From positions 17,920,247 to 17,984,246 of the forward strand of contig NC_079488.1 of assembly GCF_020520425.1 (NCBI RefSeq): 64,000 nucleotides of DNA, read 5' to 3'. The DNA is from Spinacia oleracea (lineage: Eukaryota; Streptophyta; Magnoliopsida; Caryophyllales; Amaranthaceae). The position numbers and the translations under genes were made by a program. Within the stretch, counting starts at the first letter, position 1. The number at the start of each line of letters is the position of its first letter. The notes beneath the pieces were generated by a model. That model saw only the letters and a program-made list of their open reading frames with translations, ran no database searches and was not told the origin of the DNA. Of this stretch, positions 1 through 44,366 are shown piece by piece.

Positions 1-292
1 ACAGCGTAGTCTGGGAATATTGTTTTTAACTTTGCATAATATATTTTCTTTCGAGCCCCCAAGCATTCGTGCTTGATGGTCATTTCTTGTCAAAAAGGTT
101 CCTTGGGGATAAGCATTTGTAATGTCCTTGATCGTGTTTGGGATCGTGCTCGTAAGTGCGGGTGATCTTTATAGTGGCGTGCTACTTTTAACAAAGCCGT
201 GAGGTGCGAGTTTCGGCAATTTTAAATTCGAATGAATATGGCAAGGCCCTATAGAAGTCAGAGCTGTTTTTTTTTTGGGTCTGTGATCATTT

Positions 293-351
293 TTGGCGCC
301 CAAGCCTGGGCGTTAAAGATTTCGGCGCCCAGCGCTGGGCGCTGAAAATAA
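293..351 (+). repeat. Twin GGCGCC palindrome, copy 1
   Basis: Two near-palindromes of the form GGCGCCCA..CTGGGCGC separated by about a dozen bases (TTAAAGATTTC) lie back to back. The same about 57-bp cassette recurs at 1423, 3523, 5728 and inside the LTR at 7542. Each half could form a GC-rich hairpin. Confidence 0.8.
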
Positions 352-1422
352 TTTTTGGCGAGGTTTCTTGATGACATAGTTGGCCTCTTGTTCATTCGCT
401 TATTTCACTTGGAAGTTCTATGTATTCTCTCTTCTTTTGTTTTTTTTCTTTGTTTTTAGAACGTGATGATTTTCTTGAGAAGCCGTAGCCGATTGGTGGA
501 CTACGGTGCTTGTTGCTTTGGGGCGATTATTTTAAGGAACTGTTGCTCTTAAGGCGTACAGTTATTGCGATAGTTGGGCGAGTCTATATGGCCCGAGGAA
601 CATACCTTGAGGTGTAAGACTTTGATCGCTCTTATATTTTTTTGAACGTGTTCGTGAAGGATGATATGTATGTGCGAACGAGCGTTCATAGAATGGCCAT
701 TGTGTGCGGTCCATTAATCAGATTGCTTGAATTGTTTCATCATTTTTTTTTTAGCAACGACTGATTTTGAATAGTTTGCTTAGAAGCTTGATAGGGTTTA
801 GGCCCATTCATGAAGTGGGCTCAAGCATCGTGCCCCTTCGATCGTTCAAACATTTGCTTCGAGATTTTTTATTTTGCTATGGTTATTTCGTAGCTTGGAG
901 CCCCCAAGTATGCATGTTGGGATGCTTCCTTTTGGCGTACGATTTTTGTAGGTTCTTTCGAGAAAGATGCCCTGGGGTTCCGCTCGTGTAGGTGCGAGCT
1001 ATCCCTTTCGTGGTAGGTAATACTTTGCTACTTTCAATCCTTAATGTAGAAGTAGTGTGGCTTGCATTTTGAATTTGCGCGATAAGTAATTTTTGCCTCT
1101 TTTACACATGCTCTTTGGTCGTGCCTACATTAGTGCAATATGCCCTACTTTTTTTTTAGACTTGTACCGTGGGACGGTTGAACTTATGGTGCGACGTAGG
1201 ATTGTGTGGCCTAACGGCGTGTCTTAGAACATTCCTCCAGGTGTTGGGATATTATTATTTTTTGTATTGGAGTACTTCATCATGCCTCGTTCAGGTGTTC
1301 GAACAAGTGTAGCATCTTCTGCGTGGGTTTGCATGGCTTATTACTTCGTTCGATGCGAGGATTCATAGGTGTTTCTTCCCTTTTTTTTTATATCTGGGCA
1401 AAACGTGACTAGCAGAAAGATT

Positions 1423-1479
1423 CAGCGCCCAGGCTGGGGCGTTAAAGATATCGGCGCCCAGCTCTGGGCGTTGAAATTG
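1423..1479 (+). repeat. Twin GGCGCC palindrome, copy 2
   Basis: Same cassette as at 293. It begins CAGCGCCCAGGCTGGGGCG and ends in GCTCTGGGCGTTGAAA. It is followed within about 10 bases by TTTCTGGGCAGA, an extension also seen after the copy at 3523, so the repeated unit is longer than the palindromes. Confidence 0.8.
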
Positions 1480-2766
1480 ATTTCTGGGCAGAATTTTGAC
1501 AGTTTTTTCTTTCTTGATTTTTTCCTTTCGCTTTTGCTTTGGAACGAGGTAGATTGTGTAAAGGACGCTCGTAGGGTGAGCGTTATGTGCAGTAGTTCGA
1601 TCGGAGTTTTGGTGACTCGCGATTTTCAGTTACCCTTGTTAGTGGGGCGACTTTATATACCCTAAGTAGTGCTTAGAATTTGGGAGGGGTTGTAGCCATG
1701 CTAAGGTTCGTTTTACACGATTAAAGCTTAGGATTGAGCCCCTATGACATATGTGTAGCATTAGCGTCGAGAATTTGCGATGAAATCGTCATTTCGAGCA
1801 TTTTTAGAGTGTTTTTCTTAAGCCCCCAATTGTAGCTACGGGATTAGCTTGGTGCTATAATGCTTTGCATACGTTTTTATGCATTCATGGTGACGTGGAT
1901 CATGAATAGTTTGAACCAGACTCGTTTAGTGCGAGGTACGCTCGAGTAGTGATTTTGCTACTTCTCTTGTAAATGTCGTATTGTGCGACATTGCCATGGT
2001 CAAGGTAGTCACATGTTGAAGTGTGCCTTGACCAAAAGTTAGGTGTCTTTCTTTACCCATAACCATATTTAGAAATCTTTTGACTCACTTGCAACATCGG
2101 GATAAACGCATACTTAGATTAAACCAACGACTCTTTATTATGTTCGAAGAAGTCTTTGAAAATTATTTGGAAATTATTTAAAATCCGAGTCCTACTGTGT
2201 ACAGTCCGAGGTGTCCTAAGTAAGTTGACTTATAGAAGGGTTCGTACAGAATTACATGAATGAATCAAAATACTGTTACGATTTTTGGAATGCTGTCTAA
2301 GGATTTGCTGGAAGCCAGGGTGCAGGCGTCAAGATATACTTGTGCCCGTTTGGCATATGTTTTAGGATTTTAGGGCCGTCCTTTCCAGTATTGCGGGAAT
2401 ATAAACCGTTTTCAAATTGACTTAGATTTACTTGGTGTATGTCTGTACAAAAGGTCAAGGTATACTTAGTTCTTTCCCTAGCTCTTTCATTTCAATTTTT
2501 AGCCCCAGTTGCTGTTATGTCTTCCCATTAATGATGCTTCCAAATTTCGATTTTAGATGCCCGTGTCATATGTCTGAGTGGGGTGAGCCTTGGTTAAGTG
2601 CCAAGTGCTGTTGACAATGTCTGTCGTTTTTTTTTTTTTTAAGGGGATTCGCAAGCATTTGAATTACCATGAACGGGTGCCCTGAGTTCGAAGGAACAAT
2701 GGGGCAATGCCGTAGAACAATTCTCTTTTTTTTGCAAGCTTTTGCCTTTACTACTTGTTTGCGATC

Positions 2767-2845
2767 ATGACTGTGTCTAGTGGTGAAAGAAGGTCTTTAA
2801 GCGAACGACTATGTCTAGTGGTGAAAGAAAGTCTTTAAGTGAGTT
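2767..2845 (+). repeat. Short tandem duplication (about 39-41 bp, two copies)
   Basis: The string TGTCTAGTGGTGAAAGAA followed by GTCTTTAAG occurs twice in direct succession with a few substitutions. It lies in the non-coding part of the gypsy element; no function is evident. Confidence 0.75.
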
Positions 2846-3522
2846 AGTTCGCTTTTAGGGAGGGTCAAGTTGAGTATTTTTAGAGGTCGTGGACGCTTGC
2901 GCTAGCCCCCATTCTATTGAGGCAAAGCGATCTTTTGAGTCTTGGCTAAGTGCCTAGGAGTGTGAGTGCTCCTTCCGGCGAGGGTACGTGCCCTTATTAT
3001 TTTTCGATGTGTGCTCGTTAATTTTGGCATCTTGGTGACTTGGATTCTTCCTTTGACTTAAATTTTTTCTTTCGACTTGGGTTGCAAGTAATTAAATTTC
3101 AATAAGGGACTTCTATTTTTATATTCTTATTTTTCTATAGGCTTTAATATTTTTTGCAAATTGGTTGGACCGAATCATGGATTGCCTACATATCCGCTAT
3201 AAATAGATTTAATTTGGAATCAGGTCTTGCGTAGTTCTTAGCTAGAAAATTGTTTTTTAGAATGCCGATTTTAAACAAGTACGTTCTGAGGTGGAAACAT
3301 ATTATTTGAAACGGTAGAATAAGTGAAGTTTATTATTATTTTAATCTACTGTCTTGCCGTAAGCCAAAAATTTATTTTATATTTTTTTTTTGAGTACATG
3401 TATTTTTTGGTGGTACGTATATCTGAATACGTGTTGTACCCCTCCAAGTGTTCGTTATTTTTCCGTGCATGTGCGGATAAAATGACGAGCACTTCTGGAC
3501 AAAATTTGGCGAGCAGAGAGAA

Positions 3523-3580
3523 TCAGCGCCCAGGCTGGGGCGCTAAAGATTTCGGCGCCCAGCTGTGGGCGCTGAAAATT
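3523..3580 (+). repeat. Twin GGCGCC palindrome, copy 3
   Basis: Same cassette as at 1423, including the upstream context TTCTGGACAAAA and the downstream TTTCTGGGCGGA. It lies about 2.1 kb from copy 2. Confidence 0.8.
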
Positions 3581-3768
3581 ATTTCTGGGCGGATCTTTTT
3601 TTGGTGCGCTAAATGCTTTTTTTTTCTTTTTAGACTAACTTTAGAGGCGCTTTGCAAAGTTCCTTTTTTATTATTCACATATTTTTTATTTTTCCATTGA
3701 GCGTAGAATGTACTTCTCATTTGTCTCTTTTTTTATTTGTGATTCAAACGGCTTGAAGGATGGGTTAA

Positions 3769-4095
3769 ATGAGATTGGGTAATTTGTTTAGTCGAGCACG
3801 AGGATTACATCAACCAAGGCCAATGAATATCATGGGGACAGCTCAAGGGTATAGGATGTATCCACACAAGTTATGTGGTCATTATGCTAATGGTGGCGTA
3901 AGAACAGGTTTGGGCTTTGGAAATAATGGGCATGACGCACGTGTCAATGGTCGTGCGTGGTTTGCGGTTGATAACAAGTTCAAAAACAAGAGTTGAGGTA
4001 ATGGTTTCTTGGGTTATGGCAATGAGAACATGGATGGGTTAAATGAGCTGCACAGGGACCTCAGAGCGAAGGCGTCTAAGAGCATAAGGATTGGG
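3769..4095 (+). pseudogene. Fragment of an ECT/YTHDF-type (YTH-domain m6A reader) gene, non-functional
   Basis: The + frame from 3769 reads through NGRAWFAVDNKFKNKS, meets an in-frame TGA at about 3994 where the family has Arg, and continues in the same frame as GNGFLGYGNENMDGLNEL followed by a decayed RAK segment. Plant ECT proteins (YTHDF class, cytoplasmic readers of N6-methyladenosine in mRNA) carry a conserved block of the form NGRxWLAVDxKYKxRGRGNGF.GYGNENMDGLNELNRGPRAK just before the YTH domain; the match is close over about 40 residues. The upstream codons are Gly/Tyr/Met-rich as in ECT N-terminal regions. The YTH domain is absent and an in-frame stop precedes the ATG. It sits alone inside retroelement sequence, so it is best read as a captured or retroposed fragment. 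Identification rests on remembered family motifs. Confidence 0.72.
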
Positions 4096-4360
4096 AAGGG
4101 TAGACATCGTAGAATTTTATGATTTGGATCGGTTGACTCAATTCTTTTCCTTCGTTTACTTGGGTAGATTTCGCACTTTGGGAGGTACGGGCTAAGTATT
4201 TCATGGCTCTTTTCGCTCTCCTTTTTCTCTTTCTCTTTTTTCTTTTTGCTTGGGATTCCTCCCCAACATAAATCCTTCAATCAATTTTTTGTTTGGGCTA
4301 AAAGGTAGATGGTTGTGGTCTTTGAGTCACGAGGCGAGACTGAGTGAGCCTCGTTTGGTA

Positions 4361-4437
4361 GGCCTATAGTGGACCTTTAACTTTAGTAGGCCTAGGGTGG
4401 ACCTTTAGCTTTAGTGGGCCTAGGGTGGACCTTTAAA
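4361..4437 (+). repeat. 28-bp tandem repeat, about 2.8 copies
   Basis: The unit GGCCTAGGGTGGACCTTTA followed by GCTTTAGTG is repeated head to tail with small changes. It lies in the non-coding gypsy region. Confidence 0.85.
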
Positions 4438-5727
4438 TTGTCTTACTTTGCAAGCGTATTTAGTCGTTTCTTAAAAAGTGCAAATAGCGTAGATTCAAAA
4501 TGTTATTTTTAACTTATTGAAATTTAACGAAAGAATTACATCGAAGATAATTTTTTTGCTTCTTTTCAGATTCCGGTTTCCGGGATTTAACTGAAAGTTG
4601 TGATTTAGACTCAAACTTTCATTAATCTTTCTGATTATAACCCGTGTATGAATACAAGGAGGTGGCCTAGACTCAAAATAATGACATGGCGTAAGCCTAT
4701 AATACTTGACCAAGCGACTCTCAGACTTAGGCTAATTGGACCATAACTTTCGTTGGTTGACACTTTAGATTTTAACCCTTGGGTGTTCATTTGTCATGCG
4801 CCATTTTGCTTAATGTTGGCAAGGTAGTTAATTGGGGAGATCGAATTTTTCTTTTTTGCAAGACTAGAATCATTAGTGCGGCTTCTCTCTTAGTGTGTAT
4901 TGCTTTTACCCCAATGGTAGCCTTATGGCATGCCGATTTGGGTATTTTCATGGTTGGTCATGTTGCATTCATGGAAAATCTTTTAGTCCGTACTTAGTAG
5001 TATTTCAAGGAGCGAGTGACTCGAGAGGACTATGATAGTCATGACCCAATGTGATTATAAGCCTTGAGGCCATTAATTTTTGCTAACGGTATTGACACCT
5101 TAGGTTCACTTTGGGGGTTGTGCGACTATGGGGGAATGATTTTCAGAATGTGACTGTTTCCATTTTGCAAATACTATAATATATTCTTTTTATTGGTGAG
5201 AGAGAGAGTATTGAGGCCGTGGATTCTTAACAAAGGATGACAATTACATATGGGTGCTTATTGATTTAAATGTTAGAAATGGAGACTCACTATGGTTTAA
5301 CCTTTTAACTTGCAGAACGCCACCAAGCATTAGGACCGATTCTATGGATAAGACAACTAAGACTTAGGATTTAGATTGTACTTTGGCATAACCTAGTCTA
5401 GACTCGGATTTATGTATTTTTTATTTGAATATTTATTTTTTCTTGAAGACTTTATTTGAACATTATTTTTTGAATACTTTGCCCATGTGACATTCAAGAT
5501 CATTTAATTAGCATGCTCGACTTTGGTGCCGAGCATTGTCGCCGTAGGAGGCCTAACAACGACACAAAGAGTTATTTATTTTTTTATTTTTTAGTCGCTT
5601 TTAGAGTCGAGTGCCTTTTCATACGCCCCTGCAGCAATTTTTACGAAAAGTTTTTTTTTTGCTACGTATATTTTTTCATGCGCGGGCACCGAGGCTGTTG
5701 TGCTTGACCAAAAGGCCAGGCAGCAAC

Positions 5728-5784
5728 TTCAGCGCCCAGCAGTGGGCGTGAGAAACTTTGGCGCCCAGCCAGGGGCGTTGAAAA
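5728..5784 (+). repeat. Twin GGCGCC palindrome, copy 4 (diverged)
   Basis: Begins TTCAGCGCCCAGCAGTGGGC, then a second half GGCGCCCAGCCAGGGGCG ending GTTGAAAA. The spacer between halves (TGAGAAACTTT) differs from the other copies. Confidence 0.75.
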
Positions 5785-6597
5785 TGCTTCCCTGGCTGGT
5801 TCTCGTTTTCTGTTTGCTTATACTTTTGTTTTTGCGACTTTAGTTTTGCGTGCTTGCCTTATAACGTCCTTTACGCGTTGTGCAGCGTTTGCGGGATTCG
5901 TTACGGGCCATCCCGAGCGTCGCTTATTTTTGTGGCGATCGTTCGAGCTTGCGGAACACGTATGTTGGTATAACTCTTTGGCCAATTGGTTCATGAATGT
6001 TTGGGCAATTTTTAAGGTCGTTGGTTTTCTAGCATTATTTGTCTAGCATTATTCGTACGCACAATCATAACATAGTCACATAGTTCGCTACACATAACTA
6101 CATTACAAACATGGATTTGAAAATTAAATATGTCACGTAGTTTATGATAGGCTTCTATGGGTAGTATTTGCGCCTGGCTTGGTACCGCTTCTATCGTAGA
6201 TCCAACACATGCCCCGGTCGAGGTAGTGTCTTCAACAGACGAATTTCGCTCAAGAGGCCAACCCGCAAGTGCAAGCCAAGGGGGCATGCAGGCGAGAGGG
6301 ACCTAATGAGCGAGCGATTGGGTTCGGGATAGGTGTACTACCTGCACAAGTACCGAGTGGGCGACATGCGCGGCGTATGCACCCCCCTATTGGCGAAAAA
6401 GAGGTATCCTTAGTCCCAACTCCCGAGGGAGCCGAGATTCGTTATGAGGTTCTGCCCGTTCACATTAATATGCTGATTTTCAAGTCGTCCCAACTTGATG
6501 GGGAAATAAACGCGGGGTAGGATCGTTTCACCCTTCGGCTATTTTGATTACCTACAAGCACGAGTATTTCCTTCACTATCCCCAGTGGAGTCGCTAC

Positions 6598-8058
6598 TGT
6601 GAGGGGGTCGAAAAAGCACGAGGCTAATGCGTGACCTCGTCCCTCGTGGATGTGACGATTCTTTTATTCAATCAAGTGTAATTGGATTTCCTGTGAGTTT
6701 ACACCCAATTGACTAGTAATATAGGAGTCGCCATTCGGTTTTTAACGACAATGACAAAAACTGACAAAACCCGGTTATCGTGACATAAAGGGAGTGCAAT
6801 TATGTTTGACCACGACGGCCGTAGGTTCCCTTGTGATCCCTGGTGTGGGGATCTCTCAACATACACCCGCAAGGTAGAGATTGAGGGTTCGGGGGACTGT
6901 AACTACCGAGAGGAGTACTTCGCTCGTCGATAACTCCAGAGGCAGGATATCCTTACTAGCTCAGCATAAATAATTGAAGGGACATGCGTTAACTATTAAA
7001 CTAATCTGAATTGATTTTAGCAATATGCAACATATAATACTAATTCGATCATGATTATCTGATTTAAATAGCATTAAGGGACCTAGCATGATAATCCGAT
7101 TTCCCAAAAATATTATATTTGTTAGGCGTGATAGAACAATCAGGTTAGGTTAGTTTAACAGTTCATAAAAAGGGCGAGGAAAGCAGTTAAATCATCGAAA
7201 GGGGACACATTACGACGCACCCTTGAGAGGTGCGTCACGGTTCTCAGAAAACTAACCACTTTGACTTTGCTATTTCTCCTTTTTATTTAACGAATCTCAA
7301 TTATGGGACAGGATACGTTCTTTTCGATTTATGGATCGATTGCGACAGAACGCGTGAACAGTTTTGCAGCGTGAGGCTTAGGCTAAGGGTTGGAGTCAAT
7401 ACTCAGAATATAATTATGTGTTGTTGTGTGTCTTTCACGTCGAATTTAGGGGTCTATTTATAGGGAAGAGTTCGTGGAAAGATAGAATTGCAGAGCTCAA
7501 ATCCACAAAGAATTAGGTTAAAAACACGTACCCAGGTATTTTCAGCGCCCAGGCCTGGGCGCCGAAGATTTCGGCGCCCAGAGCCAGGCGTTGAAAATAG
7601 GGTCTGGGCTGTTTTCTTTAGTCAGATTCGGATTCCTGAAATCCGTAATGTTTGAGATTTAATCGAGTATTTTAGCGCGTATCAATTTTATGACGGAATG
7701 CGTCTGGGCCCGTTACGAACTCTAGGCTCGTTAGGATTTTAATTAATACGTAACTCTTATTTCCGAATCCTATTAGGAATAGGATTTTCGCGGTTTTCTA
7801 TCTCATTTAGGATTTATGTTGGAATGCAACACCTAATTCTGACAGGTTTCTATCCTTTATGATTTGCCACTTTTAGAAGCTACCTTTTACGGCAGTTACT
7901 ATTTTTAGCAGGTTTCCATAAATAGCAGGTTTCGGGTGAAATGAAAAGGGGAATTGAGATTCGTTTATTTTATAGGAGATGCGTTGTCAAGTGGAGATTT
8001 ATGCTTTCATCATCGAACCTTTCCCTTTCGGGAATGGGGACAAAAGTAGGTGTCTACA
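6598..8058 (+). mobile_element. 3' LTR of the gypsy-type element
   Basis: Begins TGTGAGGGGGTCG and ends GGTGTCTACA, giving TG..CA termini and about 1461 bp. The sequence just outside, CCCAGTGGAGTCGCTAC, fits the region preceding an LTR in Tat-like elements. A copy of the twin GGCGCC palindrome is embedded at 7542-7599. The partner 5' LTR is outside the window, so boundaries rest on the terminal motifs and on the change of sequence character at 8059. No target-site duplication can be tested. Confidence 0.55.
7542..7599 (+). repeat. Twin GGCGCC palindrome, copy 5 (inside the LTR)
   Basis: Contains CAGCGCCCAGGCCTGGGCG, then GGCGCCCAGAGCCAGGCG and GTTGAAAA. The first half here is the most perfect palindrome of the set, and being within an LTR it should be present at both ends of an intact element. 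Confidence 0.8.
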
Positions 8059-15745: not shown

Positions 15746-15813
15746 CCTTTTTCCTTTTAACAGTATTATTCTAGTCGTCAAGACTTTACAGGAAAACATG
15801 GTAGGACGTCTCC

Positions 15814-16058
15814 TACGAACAGGGGAAGCCAGTGCTTCATAACAGGGGGAGCCAGTGCTCCATAACAGGGGAAGCCAGTGCTTCTTATCAGGGGGAACCT
15901 TGGTTCCATATCAAGGGAAGCCAGTGCTTCTTATCAGGGGGAACCTTGGTTCCATATCAGGGGAAGCCAGTGCTTCTTATCAGGGGGAACCTTGGTTCCA
16001 TATCAGGGGAAGCCAGTGCTTCTTATCAGGGGAAGCCTGGGCTCCATTTCAGGGGAAC
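15814..16058 (+). repeat. 23-bp hairpin minisatellite
   Basis: Around ten units of 23 bp alternate between two types: AGGGGAAGCCAGTGCTTCTT and AGGGGGAACCTTGGTTCCAT (each ending with ATC). The first contains GAAGC..GCTTC, the second the perfect palindrome GGAACCTTGGTTCC. Because 23 is not a multiple of three, all three + frames stay open, producing artefactual ORFs. Confidence 0.92.
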
Positions 16059-17058
16059 TTGACCAGTTCTTACACTTTCATTTATCATGTTTACATTTAT
16101 TTTAATAGAACATTAATCAGGAAAATCTCAATCATTTAGGGTGGTTCAATAAACCATTAAATCTCGTTATTTCATAAAATCATTTCTTTCAGGAATAATA
16201 ATTCATTAAATCAATTTTTTGCATAAAGCTGCATTATCATAAAATAATTCAATCAAATCATACTTGTAATCCCGCAAATCATAAAACATCATTATAAAAC
16301 ATCAATCATTCATAACATCATTCGTACATAAATACATTTCAAAGGGATTGCGGGTACTAGCAATAACCGTTACCTCAATTCCATGATTTGCTAGGCCTTT
16401 TTCCTTGGTTCGTTCGTCCTGAGCTCCGAGTTAGATTTCTTTCAAAGTATCAAATTATTGAATTAGTTATTAAAACGATAAATACTTTAAAACCAATATT
16501 TTATAAATAATGAATTCATAGATAGTGAATTTTGAAATAATAAATTTAATAAAAATATATTTTTATAAATTATTGAAAATATTATTAAAAGAATTTCAAT
16601 CAAAATTTCATTAATCGATTTACATGCATATTATTTAATTTCATAAATTAACGAAAATATTATTTAAATCAAATTTCAATCAAAATATAAATCTGATATT
16701 ATCATTTAAAATTTATATGATTAAAATAAATAACAATTGATTTTCATTAAATATTAACATGGGTGTTTAAATAAAAGAATAGAGCTTAATATGGGATATT
16801 GGGCCAAAACAAAGGGTTGGGCTCAATTTGAGGAATAAAAGAAACAAAGTTCCAATACTGGAACCTGTTTCTTTCGAAACTGAGGCACGAAGCAGGAGAG
16901 GCTCGAAGGAACAGGGGAAGCAGCCAAGAGGAAGGAGAGGGGAGAGGGGACGGAGGTGGCCGGGGTCTGGGATTGGGCGGCACAAAGATGCGAAACCGCG
17001 CCGAGAAATTCGGTGGTTGTGGTTTCTGGGCAGTGCAACAACGAGAGGGGAGGGGTTG

Positions 17059-17545
17059 TGTTCCGAGTATGGAACTGGGAATGCTCTGCCTGGAGATGTT
17101 GCCCTGTCAGACAGAACGAACGTAAGCTACCCTCGGGGGTTTTACCGAGGAAACCCCCTCCGATGCCTAAGTCAGCAAACGAAATAATATTCTAGAGAGA
17201 GAGAAGGTGGAGAGGGTTAAAAATTGTACTTGTATTGAACGTGTCCGCAAATGAATGGGGACGGCAGTATTTATAGGCGTACTATTCTGTACTTTGGCCT
17301 ATTCAGATGTCGCCGCATGTACGTTAGTGATGTACTTGTTATTTGTCCTTTTGCTCAACGACGCATCTCTGTTGTCGTCTAGCAGGTCGTTGCCCCGCGG
17401 ACCTAGGGGTCTGCGTGGTCCTTGAGGACTTATGTTATTTTCAGCGATTACTTCTTACGGTTTGCTTTGCTTGGAAGGTCTTGTCAGACGATCAATGGTC
17501 TGATGGGACACGGACGGTCTGCTAGGTTACTTCTATTCCCGTACA
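17059..17545 (-). mobile_element. 3' LTR of the Tat-type element
   Basis: In + coordinates starts TGTTCCGAGTATGG and ends TTCCCGTACA. On the minus strand it is preceded by CTCTTGGGGACTAGT, a weak polypurine-like stretch. It matches 24898-25382 almost base for base. Confidence 0.9.
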
Positions 17546-17672
17546 ACTAGTCCCCAAGAGTAGGGCTGACTACTTGGAGTTAGGCCTGCTCTTTCTGTGC
17601 TTTAGCTACACCCGTACAACTAGTCCCCAAGAGTAGGGCTGACTATTTGGATTTAGGCCTGCTCTTTCTGGT
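17536..17672 (+). repeat. 69-bp tandem duplication straddling the inner LTR edge
   Basis: The string CCCGTACAACTAGTCCCCAA with its following GAGTAGGGCTGACTA.TTGGA.TTAGGCCTGCTCTTTCTG occurs twice. The first copy includes the last bases of the LTR, so the polypurine/LTR junction itself was duplicated. Confidence 0.88.
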
Positions 17673-18474
17673 CATTCTCTACGTAGTTGGTTGTACTTTC
17701 TCCCCCTTTTTTTTTTTAAAAATATAAACCGTCACGGTTTACTGTAATAAATTTTTGATTTTTGAAACAATAAACCGTCACAGTTTACTGCGCTCCACGT
17801 GTCCTTCATTAGGGTGGGTGACTCGAAGAGTTCTTCTAATCTGGGCCGTTCATTTTCTCCCTTAAATATGTCACTTCAGTCATTTTTCTTTTCACTTTTA
17901 TTACTTCTTACCTTCTTCATCTTTTTGCTTTCTTTCAACTTCCTTTTCTTCGAACTCAATTTCGCCATATCTGAAGTGTTTTAACCCCAAGTTTTGCGCT
18001 TTCTTGTGTTTTCGCATTATTCCGGTGATTGTGCGTCGATTGGTGGTGATTTCGTTTCCTGGAAGTGCCAAAGTTTTCTGGGTTTGTGTTTTTCCTTGAG
18101 GGTTTTAGTCCGCCATTGTTGAGCTTCCGCTTCCGTCCTTTCCCTTTCCATGCATCTCTTTTGCTTCTCTTATGTTATTTTCTCTGGTTTTGCATGTAAA
18201 TTCAACTGTTGGTGGTTAATTTGTGATTTTTTGTGGTATGTTTGTTGGGTATTGAGTTTAGAGTGTTTTTGTTTGAGGGTTCGCCATTTCTGAACTTCTG
18301 AAGCTTTTTCCTTCTTCTTCTCTCCCTTTTTTTATTATATATATATTTTTTTTATGTCGTTTTGCATTTTCCTTCCTGTCGTTTTACCCTTTCCTTCCTG
18401 TTTTTTTATTTTGACTTTCTTTCTTCTACTCTTTGTTTATTCTTTTTTCTTTTTTCTCTTTTCTTTCAGTCAAC

Positions 18475-21400
18475 ATGTCTGATACCTCTGATATTGCCAA
18501 CCCTAGTAGCCCTGGGTATATTAGTGACTCTTCTGAGCCATATTCCCCTTCTTCCCCTTCATCTGTTTCTTTATCTTCTGATGAAGAAGCTAGGACAATA
18601 GCAGAGAATATAACTAAATCTATGAACGATGTCATGTCTCGCTCTAAGCATGCGGTGATATCCATTTCCAGTGGTTCTTCCTCTGGAGGTGGGTCTCCCG
18701 TTGCAGGCAGGGCTAGGCCTGCTGCGCTAGAGCCTACTCCTTCTTGTCGTCAACTCCTTAGAGAACTGTGTCATGAGCATTTGGCCAGGGCAGTTCGACT
18801 GAACCCTCCCCTTAATGCCTCTGTGGGGTTAGATGTTCAATCTTTGTCAGAAGTAGCTTGGTTGGACAGTTTTGATCAACTAGACGAGCCTTTTACTGGG
18901 GGTATTGATGGGTAATTGCATGTTTACCGCAGACGATCTACGATGGCAACTGGTCCTGGCAGTGTCTCTGGTGACGCAGAGCGTCGTGTGGAGAATCCCA
19001 TTCTTGAGGAGGTGGAGAGTTTTCGTCAGTTTCCTCTGTATGTCGGAAGATCTGCCCGTTGGTTCGACTGAGGATTACTTAAGTCCTGAAGTTTCTTTTG
19101 GTCCTTTAAATGCTGCGCCAGATGCGGACTGGCTTAAGGCAGCTCGCCAACACGATTATCCTGGTGTAAAAAGGGAGCTTTATGCTTTTCCCCCTGGGTA
19201 CGAGCTGGTTGTTCCCGCAGATGATGCTCGTATTACTGCTCCTCCTCCAGGTCATATTGGCTTGTATTCATATCACTTGGACTTTGGTTTGCGCTTCCCC
19301 CTTGATCCAACCTTAGTCAAATTTCTGAAGGCTATCAATGTCTGCCTGGCGTAGCTTCATCCGTTTGCTGTACGGACCTTGGTCTGTTATTTGTGGGTAG
19401 TGCGTTTCAAAGGTTTTCCTGAGACTCTTTCTTTATGAAAACGGTTGCACTGCATTAGAAGCAGTGATAACAAGGAAGGGAGCATCGGTTAGTTTACCAC
19501 TTACACTGCTCGGGGCAAGATGATATGCCTGGGTAATCCTACCGGGCAGAGGAAATGGAAAGGGCGATTCTTCTGGCTCCGAGTTCCATCCGACTTTCCT
19601 TTGCCTCGTACTTTTGTCCATCCCAATGGCAAGATGGAGGGTGTGGAGGTCCTTGTTGGTCACAACCTGGAGGATGCTGCTTATGAGTGGTTTCACTCCA
19701 TGGTCAAGCGTGATGCCAATGGAAAGGACATTGGTCGTGTGCTAAGGAATTGGCTGCCTCAGTCAATGTATATTCTGCGGAATGATGTTTTTTCCGCCAT
19801 GCACTTGTGCAATACTCATCCCCACGGTATATTTTTCTTTCCTTTCGTCTGTTTTCTGTTTTGTACTTAGTTTTTTTTTACGACATTTTTCTGTGTTTCT
19901 TTGTCCATCTAGGTCGCCAACACCTTGACATGAGCTCTTTGGGGTTGGCTGCTGATGGAACCCCGCAGACCAACGAACCGGCAGAAGATCCTGTCAATGC
20001 TTATCGTACCATAGCCGACGTTGTTGGCGGACGCAGAGCGAGTTCTCGGTGGACTGTTCGAGGGGGGAGTTCTACTGCTAGCCGTACTGCTAGGGGTGGG
20101 GGCTCTGTGGTCGGCCATACTGGCAGAGGTGGAGGCTCTGTTGGAGTGGTCATAGGGGCGGGCACTTCAGCACCGCGTTCGACCCCTGCTCCTCGAGCAA
20201 CTCCTTCCACTCCTGCCTCTGCGCGGCGTGGTCATACCACTCATGGGGGGGGTAATGTCGCGGGCCAGCGCCGCTCTCGCCCTGATATGGAAGGTACTTC
20301 TGTTGACGCTGCGGCAACTGCTGCAGACCAACTGTGATCTGCCCCAGTAGATCAAGTTGTGAATTCTTCTATCCTCCGAGCAAGTGGAGATTGTGGCTGA
20401 GGAATAGGACGTTCCTTTTGTACAGCGTCCGGGCAAACGTCACTGCACCGGAGAGACTTCTCGCTCGCAGGAGCAGGCCCAAGCTTCCGCCCCTGCGAAC
20501 CAAAGTAATGCCTCTCTCCCTACTTCCTCTGCTGCTCTCGCTGCTTATTTGGAGGAGCAGTTGAAGTTGCCTGAGTCCTCCATCCCTTCCTATGTGAATA
20601 TTAGGAACAAGGAGTTTTTAGAAAAGGAGATCATTGACGTTCGCCCTGAGGTGAACCCAGAGCTGGCTGCCTTCTTCCCCACAGCTCCAATTAGCGAGGA
20701 TATCTTTGTTCCCAATTGGGATGTTAGAGCTAATGAGTCTGTATATGCCAGCTTTCCAGAGAAAGGCGGAACGTTGGCATATTGGATGTTGAGGGGAATA
20801 ACGCTGCCAGCTGACCATCCACGTGAGCGTGTTTACACCCCAGGGGCTAATGCTTGTCAGAAGGTGTTGGAGGTAAGCGTTTGAATTCATATAGCTTTTT
20901 TGTACTTAGTCGTTTTCGTGCATTTTTATTTTAACATCCTCACTTTTTGCCTTTCTTTTCCTTTCAGGCTGGGGGTGTTGTGAAGGAGCTCTATGACTTC
21001 TTCATCTACTATCAAAGGAAGTATGACGAGCATCTTGCTCTTCTTGAAGAGAGAGACAGGCAGATTCAGGACTTGTCTCTGGAGAATGAAAGGGCCTCTT
21101 CTTCCTTAACAATTGCTAATGCCAACGTGCAGACCATCTCTCTTGAAAGAGATAACTTGGCTAGTGAAGTCGCCACTTTGCGCCCAGCTGGTGAGAATTT
21201 GGCCAAGGCTCAAACAGAGATAGAAGCAGAGAGGAAGCGCACTGAAGAGCTGGCAGAGCAGTTGAGTCTTGCTGAGCATAGGCATGCTGATGAGCTAGCA
21301 GACCTATGCCGATCTGTGCAAAAGGAGGTGGCTGCCGCTGTCCGAGAATTTTGCCGGTCTGATGCTCAGTATGCTCTTCTGACTCAGAGGTATGATGGCG

Positions 21401-21639
21401 GTTGGAAGGCAGCTTCCTTGATTATCAAGAGCAAGTACCCGCAGATTAATTGGGCATTGGTTGAGGAGGATTGGCTTGCTGGTCTGCATCTCACTATCCT
21501 TAAGGAATTGCGAGAGGCTGAGGTTGCCGAAGGTCGTGTAGCAGAGCCAAGCGAAGTGCCTGATTATTGCGTCGAGAATCTTCACCCAGGGGATTTGCCT
21601 TTCTCTGACGAGGACGACGCTGAAGGCAATGATGAATAA
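18475..21639 (+). pseudogene. Antisense spliced gene of the Tat element (putative gypsy-type transposon family), frameshifted
   Basis: Runs opposite to gag, between integrase and the 3' LTR. It starts MSDTSDIANPSSPG just after a CTTTCAG acceptor-like site. Middle blocks YELVVPADDARITAPPPGH and GLYSYHLDFGLRFPLDP, then WVNPTGQRKWKGRFFWLR-like text in another frame, resemble the 'putative gypsy type transposon' (transposase_28-like) family. Two introns are supported: 19827-19912 (joins HPHG to RQHLDMSS) and 20873-20967 (joins KVLE to AGGVVKEL), both GT..AG. The last exon (20968-21639) encodes a long coiled coil rich in E, L, A, K and an acidic tail FSDEDDAEGNDE. Frameshifts or stops near 18913, 19075, 19430 and 20335 break it. 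Its molecular role is unknown; such extra ORFs are described in some Tat-lineage elements. Confidence 0.72.
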
Positions 21640-21974
21640 TGGGTGTGGCGGCTATCACCTTGCTCTTCCCGTGTCAATGGATTGATTATGTAATAGTTTA
21701 GTTTAAACAATGTTACTTTGATATTTTAGCTTAATTTGATGGCGTCTGTGTCGCCTTTTGAAATAATATTTGGTAATTATTTATGCTTTTGCCTTTTGGA
21801 ACATCGTTTATTTGGATTGATTTTTTGATCTCCCAGGGCCATTTTGTAGGGCTGTACTTTATCCTTTCCTTTGATTTTGAATGAAGGTATAGCCGCCGGC
21901 ATTGATATGCATGTTTTTTTGCTGTATGTGTTTTTCTGCATTGTGTTTTTCTGCATTTTTCGATATTATTTTTG

Positions 21975-22345
21975 CCTCTGGATTGTTCTGGCTTTGGCCA
22001 GAGCAAAACTTGTAAAGCGTTCTGCGACATTTAGCGAACCCTTCGGGATGCTCCCAAATTTTCGAATTGTCCTGGCCAAACTCATAAAACGTTCTGCGAT
22101 ATTTAGCCGACGCTTTGGGCTGTTACTAATTTTTGAATTGTCTTGGCTTTGGCCAGAAAAAACTCAGAAATTGCTCTGCGGTTTTTAACCGACGTTTTAG
22201 GCTGTTACTAATTTTTGAATTGTCTTGGCTTTGGCCAGGACAAAACTCAGAAATTGCTCTGCGGTTTTTAACCGACGTTTTAGGCTGTTACTAATTTTTG
22301 AATTGTCTTGGCTTTGGCCAGGACAAAACTCAGAAATTGCTCTGC
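21975..22345 (+). repeat. 82-83 bp tandem repeat, about 4.5 copies
   Basis: Units contain GAATTGTCTTGGCTTTGGCCAG, at 22135, 22217 and 22300, and TTGCTCTGCGG; earlier copies from 21975 are more diverged. The array sits between integrase and the antisense gene; tandem repeats near here are common in Tat-type elements. Confidence 0.93.
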
Positions 22346-22616
22346 GGCCTCTTTGAGTTGCTATGTACTCTAAACCAGAAATTCATCATGATACTTTCCT
22401 TCAGCTAACTTGATTGATCAAGTCAAGTTATCTGTTGAAAATGTGCATCATGATGCATTTCTTGGCTACTTAGCATTTTATTTTCCATGATATCTTTTTT
22501 CTAGAACAGCCAAGCTCATTTCATTATATGTACTCTATGAGGAAGATAAAAAAAAAATTTAAAAAAAAAGGGATAATTTTGGCTTATCTTGCCTTATCAT
22601 CATACAATCACTTATG

Positions 22617-23081
22617 TTAAACATAGTATTTTTTGAGCATATTGGCGTTCCAGCTGTTCTTTATCTCTTTTCCATCCATTGTCATAATGTGGTATGAGCC
22701 AGGGGCTACTTCCTTTGTAATCTGATATGGTCCTTCCCAGTTTGCAGTGAACTTTCCTTCTGCTTTGCCCTTTCCTGTGGCAGTTGTTCGTCTAAGTATT
22801 AAGTCCCCTACTTGCATAGGCCTATGTTTGACCTTTTTGTTGTAAGCCCTGCTCATTCTTTCTTTGTTTGCTGCGAGTCTTAGCTCTGCTTGCAGTCTTA
22901 CTTCTGGCAGAAGGTCCAGCGATTCTCTCATGAGTTGCTCATTGGTGCTTTCATCGTAGTACTGCACTCTGAAACTGGGTAGGCCAACTTCTACTGGTAA
23001 TACTGCTTCAGCTCCAAAGGCTAACTTGTAAGGACTTTCCCCTGTCGCCTCTTTCTCGATTGTCCTATTGGACCACAGAAT
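22617..23081 (-). pseudogene. Integrase C-terminal part of Tat-type pol
   Basis: Minus strand from about 23081 reads ILWSNRTIEKEATGESPYKL, then FGAEAVLPVEVGLPSFRVQY, with NEQLMRESLDLLPEVRLQAE downstream and a terminal GPYQITKEVAPGSYHIMTMDG followed by NANMLKKYYV and a stop. This is the C-terminal portion of integrase from Tat/Ogre-type gypsy elements, after the catalytic D,D,E core, which is absent. The frame is intact for about 155 codons. It follows immediately on a gag-protease segment in a different frame, showing that a deletion fused the two. Confidence 0.88.
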
Positions 23082-24827
23082 TTCCGGTCATCATGGGGGT
23101 AGATTATGCATTTACAATCGTCCTCCGTGAAAGTGCACTGTGGGATCTTTGGAGGGGCAGGACATTTACCAGAGTTATGGTAGTTGACCTGGTGCTTGAA
23201 CCCGTTTACACTGGCCTTGACGCCGCTAGTTGTGGTCCCGGCATAAACCGGCCCTCCTGTTATGACCAAAATGTCGCCCGACCTTTTTTGATCTGCTGGG
23301 TGGCTCTGTTTAGGATCTGCCTTCTTGTTATCGAATTTGTTATCATTATCCCTGTTCTCATAGGTTCTGCTATATGAGCTCTTTGCTATGAACTGTGTCA
23401 AGTATCCCCTCCGGATTAGGTCTTCAATATTATCTTTCAGGTGAGTAAATTCTTCCGTGAGATGACCATGATCCCTGTGAAAATCACAATATTTCTTCGG
23501 GTCCCTGTATTTGTTATACATTTTTGGTGGTCTCTGCCACTTCTCATCTTCTTTACTGATGGCAAAAATTTGAGTTCTGGATGCAACTAAAGGAGTATAT
23601 TCATTGAACTTACCCCTCTTTTCGGCTCTGAATTCGCTACCTCTGCCTCGGCCCTGCCCATGCCAGTCTTTTCTGGGCTGCTGGTGTTCTCTTCTGTCTG
23701 GGTATTCTTTTTTGTATGGCTCTTTTTTGTTCTGACTGCTATAATTGTTCTCACTTGCCACATATCTGCGTGAGGTTGCTCTGCCGATTTCTTCACTTTT
23801 GATGAACTCATTTGCCTTCCCCAATACCTCTGCCAGAGTTGTGAATGACTTCCTACCCAGATAATTCTTGAATTCTCCATCACGCAAACCAGACATCATG
23901 GTCAGGACTGCCACCTCTTGCTGCAGCTTGGGTATATTTGACGCTTCCATGTTAAACCTGGATATGTAATCCCTCATAAATTCTTGCGACCCTTGGACGA
24001 CTGACATCAATTCTCCTGTCATCCTTTCTCTAGCAATATTGGCTATATACTAAGTACGGAATAAGATGTACAGCTGCCGAAAGGAAGTGATCGTCCCTTT
24101 GGGTATCTTATCGAACCAACTCTATGCTATCCCTTCTAGTGTAGAAGGAAACACTTTGCACCACATAGAGTCCGCATTGGTGAAGCATCATATGCCCCCC
24201 AAAGGCTGAGAGGTGATTGATTGGATCTGTCTTTCCGGAGTACTTGCAAGTGGGCATTTTTATCTTTTCCATCCTCTCGGAAAGTATTTCATCACAAAAA
24301 GGGGAATTATCAGGTCTAACTATAGCTCGGATGGGATTCGGCATACCTGATGCGGAGTGACGTCTTGGGCTAAGCATTTGCTCTGTTCTTGCCTTGGGTT
24401 GAGCTCTGCTAGGTGTGATGCTCTCTGCTTCATGCTCTTGATCGTCTGCCCCTTCCATTTCCGGCTGCAAGTTCCTCCTCCAAACATTGGGGCTATTTTG
24501 TGGCCTGGGGCGCTTTCTCCTCTGATCAACCTCGATCTCCGGAGGTGGCCTCATGACCTGGGGGGTTGTTTGAGTGAGGAAAGTCAAGACTTTCAGGGCT
24601 GTGCGCATCTGGTCTGGTGAGAAGTTAGCTCCCAGACGTGCCAGTGAGGCACTTGTCGGGATTTGGATGCCCTGGCTAGGGGTTGCCATGGCTCTGGGCT
24701 GAGGTGTTTCTCTTGGCGGTCCCGTGTTTTGGGGCATACCGAATTGGGGTATGGTCGCAGGTCTTTGGCTATTTCTGGTAGTGGGTGGTTCTCTCTGTTG
24801 GATCACTGGTTCACTAGATTCAGTCAT
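23082..24827 (-). pseudogene. Tat-type gag with the start of protease
   Basis: Starts MTESSEPVIQQREPP at 24827, about 70 bp inside the 5' LTR. The first frame (to 24108) includes IKMPTCKYSGKTDP and AFGGHMMLHQ-like text matching Tat gag (..YxGxxDPxxHLxxF...). A shift at about 24100-24020 leads to the second frame with MTGELMSVVQGSQEFMRDYI-like text (residues of the retrotransposon gag core), CDFHRDHGHLTEE (a zinc-knuckle remnant, CxxHxxxGH) and finally FTEDDCKCIIYPHDD, the stretch just before the aspartic protease active site. It then ends at the deletion junction near 23081. Gag would build the particle; the frame breaks make this copy inactive. Confidence 0.85.
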
Positions 24828-24897
24828 TTGTACGAAAAGGGGGTTAGGTGTTCTTCAAGAAGCGAGGCCTGAGAGGTCCCCTCCTTCTAGCTCCACT

Positions 24898-25382
24898 TGT
24901 TCCGAGTATGGAACTGGGAATGCTGTGCCTGGAGATGTTGCCCTGTTAGACAGAATGAACGTAAGCTACCCTCAGGTGTTTTACCGAGGAAACCCCCTCT
25001 GATGCCTAAGTCAGCAAACGAAATAATATTCTAGAGAGAGAAAGTGGAGAGGGTTAAGAATTGTACTTGTATTGAACGTGTCCGCAAATGAATGGGGACG
25101 GCAGTATTTATAGTCGTACTATTCTGTACTTTGGCCTATTCAGATGTCGCCGCGTGTACGTTAGTGATGTACTTGTTATTTGTCCTTTTGCTCAACGACG
25201 CATCTCTGTTGTCGTCTAGCAGGTCGCTGCCCAGCGGACCTAGGGGTCTGCGTGGTCCTTGAGGACTTAAGTTATTTTCAGCGATTACTTCTTGCGGTTT
25301 GCTTTGCTTGGAAGGTCTTGCCAGACGATCAATGGTCTGATGGGACACGGACGGACTGCTAGGTTACTTTTATTCCCGTACA
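24898..25382 (-). mobile_element. 5' LTR of the Tat-type element
   Basis: Same termini as 17059-17545 (TGTTCCGAG...CCGTACA in + coordinates). A candidate primer binding site, TGGAGCTAGAAGGAGGGG on the minus strand, begins two bases inside the LTR; I could not assign its tRNA. Confidence 0.9.
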
Positions 25383-28310: not shown

Positions 28311-28575
28311 GAGGTTTCACTTATTTGGAAAGTGAGGTATACAAACATAAAAGTTAAGAATATCAATATAAAAGTTAGTCCTGGTGTAGTAAAAGTTAAG
28401 AAAAATATTATATCAGTTTACCTAACTTTTACTACACGAAATCTAACTTTTAATGCAAAAAGGCTAACTTTTACTTTTTGTACTAAAAATGCTAAATTTA
28501 ACTTCCGAGGTTTCATTTAAGTGAAAAGTTAGGAATATCAATATAAAGTTAGCCCTGGAGTAGTAAAGTTTAAGA
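28311..28575 (+). repeat. Tandem duplication with AAAGTTA motifs
   Basis: GAGGTTTCACTTATTTGGAA... and GAGGTTTCATTTAAGTGAAA... begin two related units about 196 bp apart, each with AGAATATCAATATAAAAGTTAG-like text and CTGG.GTAGTAAA. AAAGTTA and its complement TAACTTT recur throughout, suggesting fold-back potential. Confidence 0.7.
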
Positions 28576-28629
28576 AACTTTTTATATCAATTCAATTGCT
28601 TTTGTAGTGTGTACCATTTAAATCTAAAC

Positions 28630-29330
28630 ACTCACTTTTTATTTCACACCTTGTAATTTTATGTGTTAAAGTTGTGGTTATGTAGGTTAAAGTTATGGAA
28701 ATTGTTCTAAAAGTTAAGGCAGTTTTCGTCGTCTCAAACCTAACTTTTACTTTTATTAATTTAACTTTAACTACTAAAAGTCTGACTTTTATATTTCTAC
28801 CTTTCTTCGACTAATGTGAGTCATGCAATCTGTTTTATTCCACACCTTGTAATTTTATGTGTTAAAGTTGTGGTTATGTTGGTTATAGTTATGGAAATTG
28901 TTCTAAAAGTTAAGACAGTCTTCCGTCGACTCAAGCCTAACTTTTACTTTTAATAACTTAACTTTAACTGCTAAAAGTCTGACTTTTATATTTTTACCTT
29001 TTTCAGCTAATGTGAGTCGTGCATTCTTTTTATTTCACACATTATACTTTTCTGTGTTAAAGTTGTAGTTTCATAGGTTAAAGTTATGGATATTGTTCTA
29101 AAAGTTAAGGCAGTCTTCTGTCATCTCAAATCTAACTTTTACTTTTAATACCTTTACTTTAACTGCTAAAAGGCTGACTTTTATATTTTTACCTTTCTTC
29201 AGCTAATGTGAGTCATGCATTATTTTTATTTTCACACATTGTACTTTTCTGTGTTAAAGTTGTAATTTTATAGGTTAAAATTATGGAAATTGTTTTAAAA
29301 GTTAAGAAAAGTTTTGTACCAGTCTACCCA
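28630..29330 (+). repeat. About 198-bp tandem repeat, 3.5 copies
   Basis: TGTGTTAAAGTTGTGGTTAT or a close variant starts units at 28658, 28857, 29055 and 29251. Each contains GGAAATTGTTCTAAAAGTTA, CTAACTTTTACTTTTA and CTAATGTGAGTCATGCA. Conservation between units is high. Confidence 0.92.
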
Positions 29331-29352
29331 ATATGCAAATATTTGAAAACTA

Positions 29353-29423
29353 AGGCTATTAGCTCAAATGGTAGAGCAATGTGCATTTATGTACATGGTA
29401 TGGGTTCAAGTCCCATATAGCCG
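29353..29423 (+). other. tRNA-like sequence 2
   Basis: 71 nt: acceptor GGCTAT pairs with ATAGCC, D stem GCTC/GAGC, a T arm ATGGG-TTCAAGT-CCCAT with a perfect 5-bp stem, and an anticodon stem ATGTGC/GTACAT around a 6-nt loop, which is abnormal. A- and B-box motifs are present. I consider it tRNA-derived (SINE-like or pseudogene); no anticodon can be assigned. Confidence 0.65.
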
Positions 29424-29541
29424 ACATACTATTGGGTTGTGTTTTGGTTTGATATAATGAGAAATGACTAACAATATAAAGTCACCCCAAAATTGGTAAA
29501 GTTACCCAAAATGCTGATTTACTTATCATAATAAAACTATT

Positions 29542-29612
29542 AGCCTATTGAGGATTTGAACCTACATCTCCGTGCAAGTTGCACGATGCTTGCCCAGTTG
29601 AGCTAATAGGCT
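29542..29612 (-). other. tRNA-like sequence 3 (opposite strand)
   Basis: 71 nt on the minus strand: acceptor AGCCTAT pairs perfectly with ATAGGCT, D-arm region TAGCTCAACTGGGCAAGC, anticodon stem CGTGC/GCACG. The T stem is weak (GTAGG vs CCTCA) although GGTTCAAATCC is preserved. Likely a tRNA-derived relic in inverted orientation to sequence 2. Confidence 0.6.
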
Positions 29613-36236: not shown

Positions 36237-36496
36237 GGATCGAGTATACTAACAATGTCATAAACTATTGACTGGAGGATTTCAAACCTATCTTTTCATC
36301 ATCATTATGCTTAAAGTAAAGCTAGAAAAATTTACTTGCAATAATACACCATTTTCCTTTTCTCAACGACTCTACTCAATCTTTTTCCAACGTACAAAAA
36401 GTTAGTTTCATCCTTTTCCCTTCCACTACTAATAAGATCATCTATATCACTTCCTCAACTCTAACGTTCAATAAGTCCCTACCTCAAATAACAACC

Positions 36497-37066
36497 ATGA
36501 TTATTATTCTTTCCTCCATTCCCACTCTCCTCCCTCTTTCCCTCCTCCTCCTCCTCCTCCTTGCCGCCACCACAACCGTCACCACCGCCGTCGAATCCAC
36601 TAATCTAATCAACCAAACATGCATGACTTCATCAATAAGTGACCCAAACATCAACTACAACTTCTGCATCAACGCCTTTCAAACCGCGCCCTCCAGTCTC
36701 AACGCTAACCTGACCCGTTTAGGCTTAATCTCCATTAACCTTGTTAAACACAATGTTAATAGTACAACTTTTTTGGTACAAACCTTGTTAGAGAACAACA
36801 AGGTGGATAATTGCACGAAATCTGGATTGGAAGATTGCTTACAACTTTACTCGAATTCGATGTTTACAATAAGAGAAGTAGCAAGAGATTATAGGGCTAG
36901 AAGACTTAATGGTGCTAATGTGAAATTAAGCTCAGTTATGGAAGCTTCAACTACTTGTGAAGATGGTTTTAAAGATGTTGGTGTTGGTTCTCCTTTGACT
37001 AAGCATAATAATGATACCTTTCAATTATCTGCTATTGCACTTAGCATTATATGTATGCTTTACTAA
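36497..37066 (+). CDS. Invertase/pectin methylesterase inhibitor (PMEI) family protein 1
   Basis: A 189-residue single-exon protein, the usual family length. Residues 1-31 form a Leu/Ala/Thr-rich signal peptide for secretion to the cell wall. The conserved cysteines are visible: C42 (LINQTC) and C57 (NYNFC) form the N-terminal hairpin disulfide, C114 (LEDCLQLY) and C154 (TTCEDGF) the second; C106 is extra. Motifs DYRARRLNGANVKLSSVMEA and FQLSAIALSI match Pla a 1/C-VIF-like inhibitors. Such proteins bind acid invertases or pectin methylesterases in the apoplast or vacuole; which target applies cannot be told from sequence. Start context AACAACCATGA is good. Closest by eye to the gene at 45581, and one of three tandem family members. 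Confidence 0.92.
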   Translation: MIIILSSIPTLLPLSLLLLLLLAATTTVTTAVESTNLINQTCMTSSISDPNINYNFCINAFQTAPSSLNANLTRLGLISINLVKHNVNSTTFLVQTLLENNKVDNCTKSGLEDCLQLYSNSMFTIREVARDYRARRLNGANVKLSSVMEASTTCEDGFKDVGVGSPLTKHNNDTFQLSAIALSIICMLY

Positions 37067-40641: not shown

Positions 40642-40728
40642 CTAACTTATTTTAAAGACATTATAAATTGCAACTCATATCACAGAAATTCGAAGTGAAA
40701 ACCTAAAATCGGAGGTAATTAGTCCAAA

Positions 40729-43144: not shown

Positions 43145-44366
43145 GAATTCCTAGTCTCTACTTAAATCGTTCAAGATTCACCCAGACGAATTCTATAAAA
43201 AAAAAATTAAGAAAGAGGTTAAAAAAGTTTTTTTTTTTTTTTAAATACTTGTATCATTAAAAGTCACATGAGTAGCATGTGACATATGTTTATAAAATAT
43301 ATTATGTACTTAAAAATTAGGATTACCCTTAAATTGTCCAGAGAAGGATGTCAATAACTAAGATAATGAAATTTATTTTCAACATTGTACATATATGAGT
43401 TCCATATATCCATTTCATTGGCAAATAAGGTTGCTTAGACATGCATTTAATGGATAGCCACCAAGACTTTTCGTAAATTTTCTTATTTTCTCCTTTCTGA
43501 TAAGTTAGGTCATAGTCTTGACAGACCTAATCTTTTCGTGTATTTTTTTTTTTCTTCTTTTTACTTTTTGTTTACATTGTTTCAGATGTTTTGAGTATCA
43601 TGTTTAGGCCGACTCTCCCTTACCATTTCATTTTTTTTATTTACAACTATTTCAGCAATTGTAGTACGATTATTGTTTTTGTCCCTCCCATTTTCACCGA
43701 AGTGATCATTTCATGGTTTTGAGGATTTTGTTTATACGAATTACAAGTATTATTTTTCAAATAGGATCATTCATCATTCCGTTTTGTACATTAAGTTACT
43801 ATTATTGTGCTTCCTTTTTTTAATTTTTGACGGCACAAAATAGGGACTACTCTTGTCTTCGATGTGTATTATTAGCAATTTAGCATATGTAGTGAAGGTA
43901 CAACCGATAACTTAAAAATCAAGTCACCATTGTGAAAAAGTGTAACCACAAATTATTTTTATTTTATTCTATGGTGTTGATTCAAAGCACCTAAAAACGG
44001 ATTAATTACATCATTTATTGAGTGTAGAAAGTCATAAAAGACATTAAACAATTATATTTTTCACAGTCTAGGCATCATTAACAGAATTTGAATATGCACA
44101 AAGGTAAACATTTTTTTTCGCCGCAAAAAGGTATACTTACTTGGATTAAGAAGTAAACATTTTTTGTATTCGTGGCCGGCCTCATTCCTAAATTACTGGA
44201 TCCGCCAGAGATTTCCAATAATTAGCAACAACTTTCTCCACAATCCCTTATAAATGTCTATCACCCCCTCAATCCTTTCATTAACCCAAAAACAATCCAA
44301 AAAAATTATAAAAACCATATTATTCCCATAATAATTTGATCATAACAAAACATCCATAATTTTGCA
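43145..44366. other. Upstream region of PMEI gene 2, no gene seen
   Basis: AT-rich spacer. Near its end, CCTTATAAATG (about 44247-44257) is a plausible TATA box roughly 115 bp before the ATG at 44367. Confidence 0.5.

Follow-up and report, generated by a model that had tools for sequence, protein, structure and literature searches.

A high-copy LTR retrotransposon family of spinach carrying a piece of a spliced ECT/YTHDF mRNA, probably captured in antisense orientation

The window, i.e. the whole stretch of 64,000 nt from Spinacia oleracea analysed here, begins inside an LTR retrotransposon, the interior of which contains a piece of a host gene of the ECT/YTHDF family (Table 1). On the + strand, region 3769-4095 carries a frame composed of NGRAWFAVDNKFKNKS, a TGA codon and, in register, GNGFLGYGNENMDGLNEL, just as quoted in the preliminary description, which had regarded it as a fragment of an m6A-reader gene. 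The ECT homology is confined to the piece listed in Table 1, 3769-3804 and 4091-4095 being element sequence. A 16-nt match of 3758-3773 to the same ECT exon was considered as a second capture and rejected, as other copies of the element differ there.

Table 1. Coordinates of the ECT/YTHDF piece and of its host retrotransposon in the window
Feature	Position	Strand	Remarks
Internal region of the element	1..6597	-	~1.4 kb more lies beyond the left edge of the window
Left GGATT direct repeat (5 bp), putative capture junction	3802..3806	+	overlaps TTACATC; from alignments
ECT/YTHDF mRNA piece, probably captured	3805..4090	+ (sense on +, antisense to the element)	corresponds to donor L024:5571-5859
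TGA in place of donor CGA (Arg)	3994..3996	+	31/40 aligned window-like copies
Right GGATT direct repeat (5 bp)	4088..4092	+	from alignments
Primer binding site	6579..6596	-	TAGCGACTCCACTGGGGA in the window copy
5' LTR of the host retrotransposon	6598..8058	-	LTR pair 98.4% identical, K80 0.0152

Elsewhere in the window, direct repeats of 96-97% identity (17059-17495 and 24898-25332) enclose long frames on both strands, so that 17059-25332 may be a further LTR element in which long frames run antisense; a weak Tf2-like SH3 match at 22617-23087 on the minus strand lies below the Pfam cut-off. A 433-aa frame at 40723-42024 with Pol_BBD, an integrase core just below the cut-off and a retroviral SH3 is presumably part of a copia-type pol. 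The + strand further contains two frames for plant invertase/pectin methylesterase inhibitors (PMEI; 36326-37066 and 44346-44930) and the minus strand a frame with a tify domain (56576-57028). An array with 23-bp spacing and ten overlapping matches in register is located at 15774-16080 and a tandem array of ~196 bp at 28532-29393. At or just after the end of the latter, ARAGORN calls two tRNAs, one of unknown type and one tRNA-Ser (29353-29425 and 29541-29612), which may be tRNA-like chance matches.

The host of the piece is an LTR retrotransposon with 1.46-kb LTRs, a 5-bp TSD, a primer binding site (PBS) and a purine-rich tract (PPT), which bears out the earlier view that the fragment lies inside a retroelement. 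The second LTR is located beyond the window (G000:C2:17917377-17918837, corresponding to L025:7131-8591); the two LTRs are in direct orientation with TG..CA ends, and the element has ATGCC on both sides as TSD. LTR pairs were measured in six of the ten copies fetched with their surroundings, the window included, the LTRs being broken, rearranged or missing in the fetched pieces of the other four. All six pairs have perfect 5-bp TSDs and K80 values of 0.009-0.0172, which at an assumed rate of 1.3e-8 changes per site per year corresponds to an age of ~0.35-0.66 million years. The PBS of the window copy adjoins the right LTR on the minus strand and reads TGGCGACTCCACTGGGGA with one mismatch. A search with up to three mismatches gave one match in the window, which was reached in 2 of 100 shuffles, and all five further measured elements start with GTGGCGACTC at this position. 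Next to the left LTR the purine-rich CAGTCAAAGTGGGGGCTAAC precedes TGTAGACACC, again on the minus strand, and both PBS and PPT are present likewise, with small differences, in the five further elements. As PBS and PPT are on the minus strand, the element runs in this direction, with the ECT piece in antisense orientation. The PBS resembles the tRNA-Arg type, and this putative likeness is the sole feature that points to a Ty3/gypsy label for the element. The accessible parts of two studies describe tRNA-Arg primers as frequent in plant elements, as being used among others by non-chromovirus gypsy elements and, in Medicago, as being confined to gypsy families (PMC6317226, PMC2533021).

There is no ORF of 150 aa in window 1-8058, the longest frame in the ~8-kb interior has 125 aa, and no frame of 100 aa was found in the 4.8-kb PBS-side flank of one of the ECT-like copies described below. 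A Pfam scan of 5 of the 16 interior frames of at least 70 aa gave no match, i.e. the gag and pol domains of an autonomous element were not found in the window copy within the frames scanned. Since long ORFs and Pfam matches are lacking in the scanned frames, we take the element to be non-autonomous. The preliminary description had placed the fragment in the 3' non-coding region of a gypsy element, a location that has to be given up: the distance between the piece and the PBS-side LTR is 2.5 kb, and the piece is antisense to an element in which no coding part was found. Four copies of a GC-rich motif, its halves being GGCGCCCAG...CTGGGCGC, are present in the element, one of them within the LTR (264-368, 1393-1497, 3494-3598 and 7513-7617; 61-85% alike); the motif could form a hairpin.

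The piece can be assigned to a donor in the same genome (894 Mb in 242 contigs), across which a Pfam search for YTH domains gave 15 exon matches. In tblastn against these loci the fragment matches two genes, namely the donor, an ECT/YTHDF gene on contig G000:C4 at ~103 kb, with 82/97 identical aa (E 3e-49 for a search space of 48 kb), and, much more weakly, an ECT-like paralogue (37/99 aa). On the nucleotide level the piece is 89.7% identical to the donor over 292 aligned nt (blastn, E 4e-111 / 9e-110), a match far beyond chance, and the presence of a host ECT/YTHDF fragment is thus confirmed. The donor exon runs on into the YTH domain (PF04146, E 1.6e-11, from residue 140 of the exon frame), and the solved structures nearest to the first part of this domain are those of YTHDF proteins. 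The captured stretch corresponds to the region directly on the N-terminal side of the YTH domain, and for this reason its 109-aa translation, with X at the stop, gave no match in a Pfam search; a single PDB match, to a carbonic anhydrase at E 0.1, was dismissed as chance. In the available text of a study of plant ECTs the region ahead of the YTH domain is described as long and disordered (PMC10617740).

The piece is present in at least 79 distinct filled copies, which are spread over six large contigs (C1-C6) and one small contig and fall into two sets without overlap, 40 window-like and 39 ECT-like. With window 3740-4140 as query, the best 40 of 2,815 candidates, the window's own copy included, are all 91-100% identical, whereas with the donor exon as query the best 40 of 2,761 candidates comprise the gene itself and 39 copies at 94-95% identity, all of which start at the intron-exon boundary or 1 nt away from it. 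The candidate totals are only a hint and no copy numbers, and both sets are biased towards their query as each consists of the best-scoring 40 of ~2,800 candidates. Eight of the 39 ECT-like copies (L074-L081), chosen by their likeness to ECT, were read; these and the 40 aligned window-like copies have the same element flanks at dispersed sites. At the position of the TGA, CGA is retained in 8 of the 40 window-like copies, and a single copy shows a different codon. The TGA and a 6-bp deletion are found in all four combinations (L054, L055, L056 and window 3805-4090), which suggests recombination between copies or subfamilies, or recurrent change.

The ECT-like copies reveal that the piece is of spliced origin. 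In each of the eight copies read, the end of the preceding ECT exon (43-47 nt, within L024:4748-4794) is joined straight to the next exon (from 5568), so that in these eight of the 39 copies a GT..AG intron of 773 nt is exactly missing; against the spliced ECT reference 338-342 nt align with 94-95% identity. Thus, the donor molecule was a spliced mRNA or its cDNA, in agreement with the retro-capture considered in the preliminary description. The upstream-exon part is absent from the 40 aligned window-like copies, and 60 nt upstream of the homology start in seven of them showed no relation to the preceding exon or intron, the score being matched by at least 72 of 300 shuffles in every test. In the longer form TTACATC, or a one-base variant of it, occurs twice, 50 nt apart, and in the window type once, from which it appears that the window subfamily later lost the 50 nt between these repeats. 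Owing to this deletion the homology in the window seemed to start at the splice site and the intron loss is invisible in the 40 window-like copies.

Filled copies read AGCATGAGGATT followed by ACATCTGC at the first junction and AGCATAAGGA followed by TTGGAAAGG at the second, the latter being AACATAAGGA in the eight ECT-like copies. Removal of the piece predicts AGCATGAGGATTGGAAAGG as empty site, and such sites exist. With the joined flanks (109 nt) as query, all of the best 40 of 1,841 candidates show 96-98% identity over 107 nt or more, and each of the six empty sites that were fetched, compared over ~230 nt each, reads through AGCATGAGGATTGGAAAGG, i.e. has GAGGATTGGAAAGGG without the ECT piece. 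The comparison of filled and empty sites thus identifies GGATT as the sequence that is doubled around the insert. At the second junction the ECT piece ends, on its 3' side, in AGCATAAGGA, which agrees with the element target, AGCATGAGGA, in 9 of 10 bases. Judging from their flanks, the empty sites probably lie within the same element, between the same LTRs. Since flanks without the piece exist, some relatives of the element do not carry it, and the supposition that the fragment may lie in many copies of its family holds for the at least 79 filled copies and not for every relative.

Based on these findings we consider it highly probable that an LTR retrotransposon family captured the ECT piece from spliced mRNA in antisense orientation. 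As to the route, we favour a double template switch over break repair. A non-autonomous family would have picked up ~340 nt of spliced ECT/YTHDF mRNA, antisense, by switching template twice during reverse transcription in a virus-like particle that co-packaged ECT mRNA or its cDNA. For the switch back, the 10-nt near-match between AGCATAAGGA in ECT and AGCATGAGGA in the element may have served as guide, and the outcome would have been a second copy of the target GGATT. Multiplication of the filled element would have followed, and the window's subfamily would have lost the upstream-exon part by the 50-nt deletion and gained other changes. That reverse transcriptase made the switches is inferred, as is the timing of the capture; since no coding partner was found, we have to assume that a gag protein did the packaging. 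A 2020 review describes, in its accessible part, transduced sequences as usually being in sense orientation (PMC7264820), which counts against an antisense capture.

Alternatively, the piece may be filler of a double-strand break, i.e. a reverse-transcribed, spliced ECT cDNA ligated or copied, in the course of repair, into an integrated element that was mobilised later, a route that differs from the double template switch solely in how the piece was inserted, capture from spliced mRNA being common to both. From such a filler one expects random orientation and short duplications, to which the doubled 5-bp GGATT and the antisense orientation conform, junctions of a similar kind would be expected from repair with a cDNA filler, and copies of spliced mRNAs are described, in the part of the report available, as mending breaks in mouse zygotes (PMC4516963). 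The 9/10 match at the junction, however, is in favour of homology-guided copying over blunt joining, even if synthesis-dependent repair could use this match as well, and we regard break repair as possible, yet doubtful.

The other readings concern the frame and the surroundings of the piece. In all eight ECT-like copies (L074-L081) a frame of 135-140 codons is open from an ATG of the element onwards and fuses element and ECT sequence, in copy L078 up to the end of the piece, and antisense ORFs are given as characteristic of the Retand lineage in the accessible text of PMC11963269. The captured frame might thus be an active antisense extra ORF, encoding a short element-ECT protein kept for the benefit of the element. 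However, the frame is open in only 4 of the 40 window-like copies, the eight open ones having been picked by their likeness to ECT, and the private changes are close to neutral expectation both in the 40 copies (18 synonymous, 61 non-synonymous and 5 stop changes vs. 20.9, 60.2 and 2.9 expected) and in the eight ECT-like copies (3, 18 and 0 vs. 5.1, 15.2 and 0.7). As the changes fit neutrality, selection for a protein is not apparent. The dN/dS ratio is 0.83 between copies and 0.32 between ECT and the copies, and 5 of 6 fixed differences between ECT and the copies are synonymous; the low value of 0.32 would reflect constraint on the host gene and none on the copies. A conserved antisense extra ORF (aORF-3R) is located between pol and the 3' LTR and is conserved as a protein; the frame here shares its antisense orientation, whereas pol was not found and the changes in the frame agree with neutrality. 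An active ORF is therefore very improbable in our view. The stops in 36 of the 40 window-like copies might also be taken to indicate a decaying ECT pseudogene with retroelements inserted in or beside it, but the 40 window-like and eight ECT-like copies share the element flanks at dispersed places, and this idea, the probability of which is negligible, is refuted by the empty sites together with the 5-bp TSDs that flank complete elements.

LTR-driven transcripts of the element would be antisense to ECT mRNA over the captured stretch. Each of the 40 window-like copies contains 14-64 21-mers identical to the ECT exon and each of the eight ECT-like copies 90-118 identical to the spliced ECT mRNA, with longest exact runs of 51-62 nt in the latter, so that at least 14 21-mers are shared with ECT mRNA in all 48 copies measured. 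Of the 90-118 21-mers of the ECT-like copies, 5-11 have no counterpart in the 10-kb region of the unspliced gene; these cross the splice junction and thus match the ECT mRNA and not the ECT gene. Given antisense orientation and 21-mer identity, the sequence requirement for an action on ECT mRNA is present. Element transcripts are thus a plausible source of siRNAs matching ECT, and, in principle, element RNA could silence the ECT donor gene by pairing with it. We speculate that the family might even be a dispersed antisense locus, in which LTR transcripts or siRNAs reduce the amount of ECT mRNA, m6A reading by the host being linked in this way to retrotransposon activity, although we hold this to be unlikely. 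The antisense sequence is traced to its donor, to the spliced mRNA, to filled and empty sites and to exact junctions, from which a mechanism of capture can be deduced. The family also offers a clean natural setting in which to ask whether an m6A-pathway gene can be silenced in trans by a high-copy element.

LARD-type elements are non-autonomous LTR elements with a long non-coding interior, and the element described here resembles them in its interior, differing by the host mRNA piece it carries. Bs1 of maize has intron-free host gene parts in a sense fusion frame and is low-copy. Like the element here, Bs1 is described, in the accessible text, as an LTR retrotransposon with transduced host gene parts (PMC13317346); unlike in Bs1, the piece here is antisense, without coding selection and present in at least 79 copies. 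Transductions are, according to the available sections of a review, usually located in gag/pol sense, with transduced extra ORFs in one or few copies, and the origin of most antisense extra ORFs in plant LTR retrotransposons is stated as unknown (PMC7264820). Such ORFs of the Tat/Retand type (Grande gene23, RIRE2, Retand) are likewise open frames antisense to the element, a property that the family here shares in some of its copies only; as far as the accessible texts go, they are conserved in most copies, lie beside pol and are mostly of unknown origin (PMC7264820, PMC11963269), whereas the piece described here has a known origin, pol was not found in the element and the frame shows no selection. 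In the accessible part of a maize survey, 425 intact LTR elements with gene fragments, representing at least 189 captures, are reported, i.e. ~2 intact elements per capture on average (PMC2774510). As in the family here, host fragments were amplified by LTR elements in this set (PMC2774510); in contrast to it, one capture is present here in at least 79 copies, intactness being shown for some, and donor, empty site and splice junction are resolved. Among the entries listed from the open-licence literature, no title or opening of an abstract described an ECT/YTH piece in a retrotransposon or this element, and the terms "gene fragment" and "LARD" are absent from the available main text of a spinach repeat survey (PMC6337768). 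Taken together, host-gene capture by LTR elements is already known, and what is novel is an antisense, spliced, high-copy capture together with its donor and its empty site.
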